Source of the DNA: Candidatus Methylopumilus universalis
Lineage (GTDB): Bacteria > Pseudomonadota > Gammaproteobacteria > Burkholderiales > Methylophilaceae
Length of the DNA stretch: 64,000 nt
Reading direction: 5' to 3'
NCBI RefSeq assembly: GCF_006365315.1
Contig: NZ_CP040968.1
Location: 620,001 to 684,000 of the forward strand
The translations under genes were made by a program, and so were the position numbers. This document shows, piece by piece, positions 7,731 through 9,246 of the stretch. The first letter of the stretch is position 1; the number at the start of each line of letters is the position of its first letter. The notes below the pieces were generated by a model, which searched no databases, had not been told where the DNA came from, and saw nothing but the letters and a program-made list of their open reading frames with translations.

Positions 7731-7758
7731 TTGATTTAATTCAAAAAACACCTATAAT
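7731..7758 (+). promoter_or_regulatory. Promoter of the rpsF operon
   Basis: -35 TTGATT (7731-7736), 16-base spacer and a perfect -10 TATAAT (7753-7758), immediately after uvrB. Predicted start near 7765 leaves a leader of about 63 bases that contains the hairpin described next. Confidence 0.75.
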
Positions 7759-7772
7759 ACTCGATCTTTCTA

Positions 7773-7819
7773 CCTTGCTTTACAGTGAGTTGCATCACTG
7801 AAAGCTTTTAACCATAAGG
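7773..7819 (+). promoter_or_regulatory. Structured rpsF leader, candidate S6:S18 autoregulatory element
   Basis: The leader can form CCTT (7773-7776) plus GCTTT (7777-7781), a bulged A (7782) and CAGTGA (7783-7788), closed by a GTTGCA loop, pairing with TCACTG (7795-7800), AAAGC (7801-7805) and, after a 10-base bulge containing ACCAT (7806-7815), AAGG (7816-7819). AAGG is part of the rpsF Shine-Dalgarno AAGGGG (7816-7821), six bases before ATG. An S6:S18-binding rpsF leader with a bulged CCG is known in other bacteria; here the bulge has CCA, so assignment is tentative. Confidence 0.5.
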
Positions 7820-7827
7820 GGATTTAT

Positions 7828-8205
7828 ATGCGACATTATGAAGTAGTATTTATCGTACATCCTGATCAAAGCGAACAAGTGCCTGGCATGATTGAACGCT
7901 ACAGATCTCTAGTAACATCCAAAGGTGGAAAACTCCACCGCCTCGAAGATTGGGGTCGCAAACAGCTTGCTTACATGATTGAAAAAATTCATAAAGCGCA
8001 TTATGTGCTTATGAATATCGAATGTGACATTGAAACACTTGCAGAATTAGAGCATGCATTTAAGTTTAATGATGCCGTGTTACGTCATTTGATTATGAGC
8101 ACAAAAACAGCCGTGACTGCACCATCGATTATGATGAAAGAAGAAAAATCAAAATCAGTGCTTGATAAAGATGAGCGTGCTGCACCTGAGGTTGCTGTAG
8201 CTTAA
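7828..8205 (+). CDS. rpsF: 30S ribosomal protein S6
   Basis: 125 residues. Binds S18 and the central domain of 16S rRNA. The conserved core begins [20 protein letters not shown] and includes [13 protein letters not shown] and [10 protein letters not shown], typical of bacterial S6. The C-terminal tail after about residue 100 is basic then acidic and variable, as usual. A strong Shine-Dalgarno (AAGGGG) lies six bases before the ATG. First gene of the rpsF-priB-rpsR-rplI operon. Confidence 0.97.
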
Positions 8206-8211
8206 TCTAGA

Positions 8212-8496
8212 TTGAATTGCTTAGAGATTTCTGGGGAAGTGTGCCATGTGGACCCGGTACGTTATACCCCCGCAGGAATACCAGCACTTAATCTTATTTT
8301 AAAACATAGCTCAGAGCAGATTGAGGCAAATTTAAAGCGAACAATCAATTGTGAGTTAAGCGCAAAAATTATGGGTAATGATGCATTGATACCTTTAAAA
8401 ATTGGCGACAGAATTAAAACAAAAGGGTTTATTGGAAATAAAAGCGCAAAAAGTAATCAGCTAATTTTCCATATTAATTTTATAGAATATCTATAG
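8212..8496 (+). CDS. priB: Primosomal replication protein PriB
   Basis: 94-residue OB-fold single-stranded-DNA-binding protein that works with PriA in replication restart. The N-terminus (NCLEISGEV, then RYTPAGIPALNLILKH) matches the PriB consensus, and the position between rpsF and rpsR is diagnostic for beta- and gammaproteobacteria. Start is TTG at 8212, only six bases after the rpsF stop, without a good Shine-Dalgarno, so translation is probably coupled to rpsF. Confidence 0.9.
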   Translation: MNCLEISGEVCHVDPVRYTPAGIPALNLILKHSSEQIEANLKRTINCELSAKIMGNDALIPLKIGDRIKTKGFIGNKSAKSNQLIFHINFIEYL

Positions 8497-8505
8497 GAGT
8501 TTACG

Positions 8506-8733
8506 ATGGCAAGAGAAATGTACAAAAGAAGACGTTACTGCAGATTTAGTGCTGAAGGCATTAAAGAAGTGGATTACAAAGATGTTGATTTATTAAAAGA
8601 CTTTATTACCGAAAATGGAAAACTTATTCCAGCTCGTATTACAGGTACTAAGGCGATTTATCAACGCCAACTCAATATTGCGGTGAAGCGCGCTCGTTTT
8701 TTAGCGCTTTTACCATACACTGATAAGCACTAA
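8506..8733 (+). CDS. rpsR: 30S ribosomal protein S18
   Basis: 75 residues, full length. S18 forms a heterodimer with S6 on the 30S platform. Conserved features: [20 protein letters not shown] near the N-terminus and the basic [15 protein letters not shown] near the C-terminus. Preceded by AGGAG seven bases before the ATG. Nine bases after priB and 12 before rplI, inside the same operon. Confidence 0.97.
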
Positions 8734-9219: not shown

Positions 9220-9246
9220 AAAGGCTGCCTAGAGCAGCCTTTTTTT
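9220..9246 (+). terminator. Rho-independent terminator after rplI
   Basis: AAGGCTGC (9221-9228) pairs with GCAGCCTT (9234-9241) around a CTAGA loop, followed by a T run to 9246. Separates the ribosomal operon from dnaB. Confidence 0.85.

Follow-up and report, generated by a model that had tools for sequence, protein, structure and literature searches.

The operon rpsF-priB-rpsR-rplI in the window, which is the whole stretch of 64,000 nucleotides analysed here (contig positions 620001–684000 of a complete genome of 1.28 Mb), is most likely headed by an autoregulatory leader of the S6:S18 type, to which a pseudoknot with the start codon would add a lock in Burkholderiales. Comparison with other leaders favours reading the element as the S6:S18 rpsF leader in its betaproteobacterial form. 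This kind of leader is known, the class having reportedly been described by Matelska in 2013 and Fu in 2014; its betaproteobacterial form, in which the loop would pair with the start codon in a pseudoknot, appears, as far as searched, to be undescribed, and no account of it was found in the literature searched, to which the figures of Matelska and Fu did not belong. Babina 2015 (PMC4647458) nowhere mentions a pseudoknot for the rpsF leader, and the bS6-bS18 section of the review PMC10931766 names a stem, a hairpin and a CCG bulge only. The element would extend a textbook case of autoregulation to a large bacterial group that the public RNA model misses.

Operon and upstream region

The gene order of the operon is identical to that in E. 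coli, and the four genes are located on the forward strand. The rpsF gene at positions 7828–8205 encodes ribosomal protein S6 of 125 residues, which aligns over its full length to E. coli S6, and it is followed by a priB-like ORF (8212–8496) that is the second gene, in an E. coli-like position, by rpsR encoding S18 (8506–8733), by rplI encoding L9 (8746–9198), and by a terminator-like hairpin after rplI at 9220–9242. The priB-like ORF has a TTG start 6 bases past the stop codon of rpsF, suggesting coupled translation.

A promoter-like sequence is located on the forward strand at 7731–7758, with TTGATT (from 7731) and TATAAT (7753–7758) spaced by 16 nt and agreement with the consensus in 10 of 12 positions. 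It is the best consensus match of the region, where chance matches of such quality are not rare, and TATAAT or a close variant is present at the same position in most of the relatives' leaders. Since this motif is found upstream of the stem, a transcription start downstream of 7776 is not suggested.

Fold of the rpsF leader

The leader can be folded into two helices on the forward strand. H1 is formed by CCTT at 7773–7776 (CCUU in the RNA) and AAGG at 7816–7819, the latter being part of the Shine-Dalgarno sequence of rpsF, a pairing seen in the sequence, by RNAfold and in the alignments. H2 (7777–7805) consists of a lower part where GCTTT (7777–7781) pairs with AAAGC (7801–7805), a bulged A7782, an upper part where CAGTGA (7783–7788) pairs with TCACTG (7795–7800), and the apical loop GTTGCA (7789–7794), and is found by both RNAfold and RNAalifold. 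Between H2 and AAGG there is a one-sided bulge of 10 bases at 7806–7815, TTTTAACCAT in the DNA and UUUUAACCAU in the RNA, with CC at 7812–7813, and a linker of 8 bases (7820–7827) separates H1 from the ATG of rpsF at 7828. The sequence-only reading had proposed a hairpin of 15 pairs with one bulged A, the last four pairs using AAGG of the Shine-Dalgarno sequence, and a 10-base one-sided bulge with CC where S6:S18 leaders have their CCG; the pairs and the bulged A agree exactly with the sequence and the RNAfold minimum, and the two other points were likewise confirmed.

This hairpin is the RNAfold minimum for 7760–7840, with −16.8 kcal/mol and a z-score of −1.99, and 6 of 200 shuffles fold as well or better. 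The folding energy by itself is only mildly unusual, about 2 standard deviations below the shuffles, and such a value would suit an AT-rich intergenic inverted repeat that folds by chance and has no function. With four pairs H1 is weak in the window, and in the ensemble A7816 and A7817 are each paired in only about a quarter of the structures. It is the comparative evidence, and not the folding energy, that places the element above chance.

Conservation in related genomes

Among named organisms, the genome of the window is closest to Candidatus Methylopumilus and other Methylophilaceae. A covariance model built from 42 aligned leaders, all from genera other than that of the window, matches positions 7763–7830 at 52 bits with an E value of 7.8e-16 in a search of the window, and the second-best site in the whole 1.28 Mb genome reaches 16.9 bits. 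In the alignment of the 42 leaders 98.0% of the cells of H1 and H2 are paired and six of the 12 pairs have changed on both sides, with 56 double-changed cells observed against 14.3 in shuffles, and the paired cells drop to 43–68% in control structures slid by 1–3 columns. The same model finds matches in 165 of the 274 genomes of a class-wide sample, and all of the 69 matches inspected run into an rpsF-like start. The 52-bit match and the compensatory changes across the order and the class contradict a chance fold, which is hardly credible as an explanation. Pairing of the stem in relatives, which the sequence-only reading had named as a check, is thus kept in close and distant genomes with compensatory changes, and the element is real.

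The two helices are supported in different ways. H2 is paired in 97–99% of the cells and has six pairs with changes on both sides. The CCUU/AAGG helix is paired in 99–100% of the cells, and because both strands are nearly invariant no co-variation of H1 is visible in the leader alignments, nor was H1 chosen by RNAalifold; for this helix it is conservation only that argues. H2, the opposition of CCUU and AAGG, and the CC of the bulge can all be read directly from the aligned leaders, as can the co-variation of loop and start described below.

Three rpsF leaders of family f209 (L354, L357 and L358) do not have the usual CCUUG hairpin and share the motif GTCCA(T/C)AG...GAAAGG before the start, which may be another leader. 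One further locus from a draft genome (L277, G389:C21:84778-85137) has an in-frame TAG inside the rpsF match.

Relation to the S6:S18 leaders

The element is located directly 5' of rpsF in an operon containing rpsR, in the window as well as in all relatives inspected. With the S6:S18 rpsF leaders of E. coli and B. subtilis it has in common the site before rpsF, the operon rpsF-priB-rpsR-rplI, an H1 that includes the Shine-Dalgarno sequence, a co-variation-supported H2 on top of it above the bulge, both as the class requires, and a one-sided CC bulge just before the Shine-Dalgarno sequence. It differs from these leaders in a bulge triplet that ends in A and not G, and from that of E. coli also in its apical loop, which is short and lacks the inner stem found there. 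The H1 of the E. coli leader contains the Shine-Dalgarno sequence, S6 and S18 together repress via this leader, and a change of the two conserved bulge cytosines to AA abolishes regulation; these cytosines mimic C719/C720 of 16S rRNA, which are contacted by K60 and R63 of S18 (PMC4647458). The bulge CC of the window matches the cytosines contacted by S18, the aligned rpsR product keeps both contact residues (K60 and R63, counted as in E. coli with the initial Met), and the organism's own 16S rRNA has CC at the S18 contact site. The S6:S18 leader described in Chlorobi (PMC7247131) shares the operon and the presumed ligand with the window but its motif is unlike the rRNA site, whereas the motif of the window resembles it.

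The fold predicted by RNAfold hides AAGG without any ligand, and the hairpin might therefore be static, setting a low constant translation rate or protecting the 5' end without a protein switch. Such a function gives no role to a one-sided bulge with a nearly constant CC, the operon and architecture are the same as those of a leader whose binding of S6:S18 has been demonstrated for E. coli and B. subtilis, and the S18 contact residues are kept, all of which makes a static hairpin very improbable. The conserved pairing with its compensatory changes and the kept CC support instead the S6:S18 leader that had been proposed from the sequence.

A search with the Rfam model of this leader, which had been put forward as a check, gave nothing when taken literally: RF02893 (RpsF_leader) has no match in the window either at its gathering threshold of 37 bits or with E values up to 10. 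The model scores 110 bits on the E. coli control but, with E values up to 10, also missed all of ten further loci from betaproteobacteria, and is therefore too narrow to decide on membership. The skeleton CCUUGCC...GGC...CC...AAGG is common to its E. coli member and the element of the window, and the 42-leader model in turn gives a weak match on E. coli, with 14.7 bits and an E value of 0.002 in a search of 4.5 kb. The element is filed here in the S6:S18 leader class, not under RF02893, and a broader model than RF02893 would recover it in many genomes. The sole Rfam match was to rnk_leader on the minus strand, which with 19.8 bits against a threshold of 50 was rejected as a chance match.

The third base of the bulge triplet

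The G that is often quoted as the third base of CCG in this class is not present in the window, where the triplet is CCA. All 30 Methylophilaceae loci have CCA, and conservation of the bulge, another check named in the sequence-only reading, is thus found for its CC. In the other Burkholderiales the cytosines corresponding to C7812 and C7813 are kept in 166 of 170 scorable loci, with 153 CCA, 9 CCG and 4 CCT, and outside the order 28 CCA and 22 CCG were found, counts that are biased to CCA as the sample was collected with a CCA-trained model. Since CCA is common, and the published mutants probe the cytosine pair, a G in the third position is not taken as defining; the often-quoted CCG triplet is really CC and a freer base. 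The presence of CCA rather than CCG had been noted correctly, but its interpretation as divergence of the element in an AT-rich genome did not hold, because CCA occurs order-wide, including in GC-rich genomes, and is normal. AT-drift as its cause is ruled out by the GC-rich Rhodocyclaceae-type genomes, which also have CCA.

The S18 site of the 16S rRNA, which in the genome of the window is at contig positions 844755–844795 on the minus strand, reads ACCAAUGG (with CCA) in most Methylophilaceae and ACCGAUGG in four genera. The leader and the 16S rRNA thus both have CCA in the present genome. That the third base of the leader copies the organism's own 16S rRNA is ruled out by mismatching genomes: four Methylophilaceae (G016, G017, G025 and G031) have CCG in the 16S rRNA yet CCA in the leader, and in G057 it is the opposite.

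Proposed pairing of the apical loop with the start codon

The apical GUUGCAU of the window (7789–7795, forward strand) can form seven pairs, one of them G-U, with AUGCGAC at 7828–7834 on the same strand, which comprises the start codon, codon 2 (Arg CGA) and the first base of codon 3, with an energy of −8.9 kcal/mol. The sequence-only reading does not mention this complementarity. T7795 is shared with H2 as its last base, and T7795–A7828 competes with the top pair of that helix. Judged from the window alone this match is too weak, as 4% of shuffled loops match as well or better, and the case for a pseudoknot therefore rests on comparison.

The loops of sister genomes are CCGCAU or UCGCAU, and most betaproteobacterial H2 loops contain CGCAU, the reverse complement of AUGCG, which is the start codon with the first bases of the second, arginine codon. 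Loops and codons go together also beyond this core: GUCGC is found with CGA as codon 2 (GCGAC), GACGC with CGU (GCGUC), and GCCGCAU with CGG. The loop GCCCAU goes with AUG[N]GGC in two families where codon 2 is AGG or CGG, for example AUG[A]GGC, CUCAU pairs with AUGAG, and in one family GCAC pairs with GUGC immediately 5' of AUG. Within a single family (f200) CGCAU is kept where codon 2 is CGA, CGU or CGG, and GCCCAU is found where it is AGG.

The association was scored in 178 non-identical leaders from 48 families, with the genus of the window excluded except for one near relative, as the longest Watson-Crick run between each loop and its own start (−4 to +9). The run averages 5.29 with the own start and 4.68 (sd 0.06) when starts are swapped, the own-start value being reached in none of 5000 permutations, and with one leader per family, relatedness being handled by such sampling and not on a tree, the values are 5.38 and 4.74 (sd 0.115). 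Shuffling the letters of the loops gives a mean run of 3.36, and swaps within families are moderately worse than the own pairing (85/5000). Among the 65 leaders from outside Burkholderiales there is no signal, the own run being 3.34 and the swapped 3.37.

With one leader per family, the synonymous third position of codon 2 and the loop base opposite it are complementary in 22 of 41 families, against an expectation of 11.2 (3/20000 permutations). For A in the codon the loop has U in 34 cases and A in 5, and for U in the codon it has A in 22 and U in 7. GC content is unlikely to lie behind this association, since it distinguishes A from U partners. Over 57 aligned leaders 83.9% of the cells of the pseudoknot helix are paired, and for the wobble pair alone, taken from MAFFT columns, the excess is modest (6/500 for paired cells and 18/500 for the score), partly owing to three misaligned rows.

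The co-variation of loop and start points to a pseudoknot with the start codon. The leader could also be of the known type with no such pairing, and CGCAU be kept for example for protein contact or loop stability. No pseudoknot is needed in E. coli, whose leader regulates using H1, H2 and CC alone (PMC4647458), and neither E. coli nor other gammaproteobacteria have the match of the loop to start codon and codon 2 that is seen in the window, or the corresponding signal. Protein contact, however, explains neither why a loop base should track the synonymous third base of codon 2 nor the matching alternative loops in the AGG lineages and with GUGC before AUG, and a leader without the pseudoknot is thus an unlikely explanation. 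The S6:S18 leader of Burkholderiales probably has a second lock, in which the loop forms a pseudoknot with the start codon and codon 2 of rpsF.

Proposed regulation

In the open state of the RNA, AAGGGG and AUG would be reachable by ribosomes, and in the closed state AAGG would be held by CCUU in H1, below H2. S6:S18 in excess over rRNA is proposed to bind the closed state, with S18 contacting the two bulge cytosines that mimic C719/C720, and to stop translation of the operon. The extra lock of Burkholderiales would be pairing of the H2 loop with the start codon and codon 2 (GUUGCAU/AUGCGAC), covering AUG, so that in the repressed state both the Shine-Dalgarno sequence and AUG would be closed. 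Binding of S6:S18, repression, and the formation of H1 together with the pseudoknot are what we infer from the leader comparisons; for both pairings to form simultaneously, the 8 bases of 7820–7827 would have to bridge the distance between the lower end of H1 and the apex of H2, which looks possible.

Start-site pseudoknots are known from other ribosomal-protein leaders such as the S15 (rpsO) leader of E. coli, where the initiation region is paired with the loop of a hairpin and the ribosomal protein presumably stabilises this state. The present leader is unrelated to the rpsO leader in sequence and ligand, and here it is the start codon that would pair with the loop, the Shine-Dalgarno sequence being already engaged in H1. 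If the pseudoknot is true it would give a purpose to the conserved loop, and the joint change of the loop and a synonymous codon base would be a clean natural experiment. Constraint by a ribosomal-protein leader would then extend to a synonymous position in codon 2. Repression would then be predicted to be tighter than in E. coli, or mechanically different.

A few leaders deviate in the loop or at the start. In two leaders of family f207 (L268 and L278) rpsF is apparently TTG-started, and the loop is CGUAU or CGCAC and not CGCAU. In Methylotenera and relatives (L018, L035–L037, L039, L042, L043 and L046) codon 2 is AGA and the CGCAU loop has been lost, and in several of these leaders the upper hairpin is much longer.
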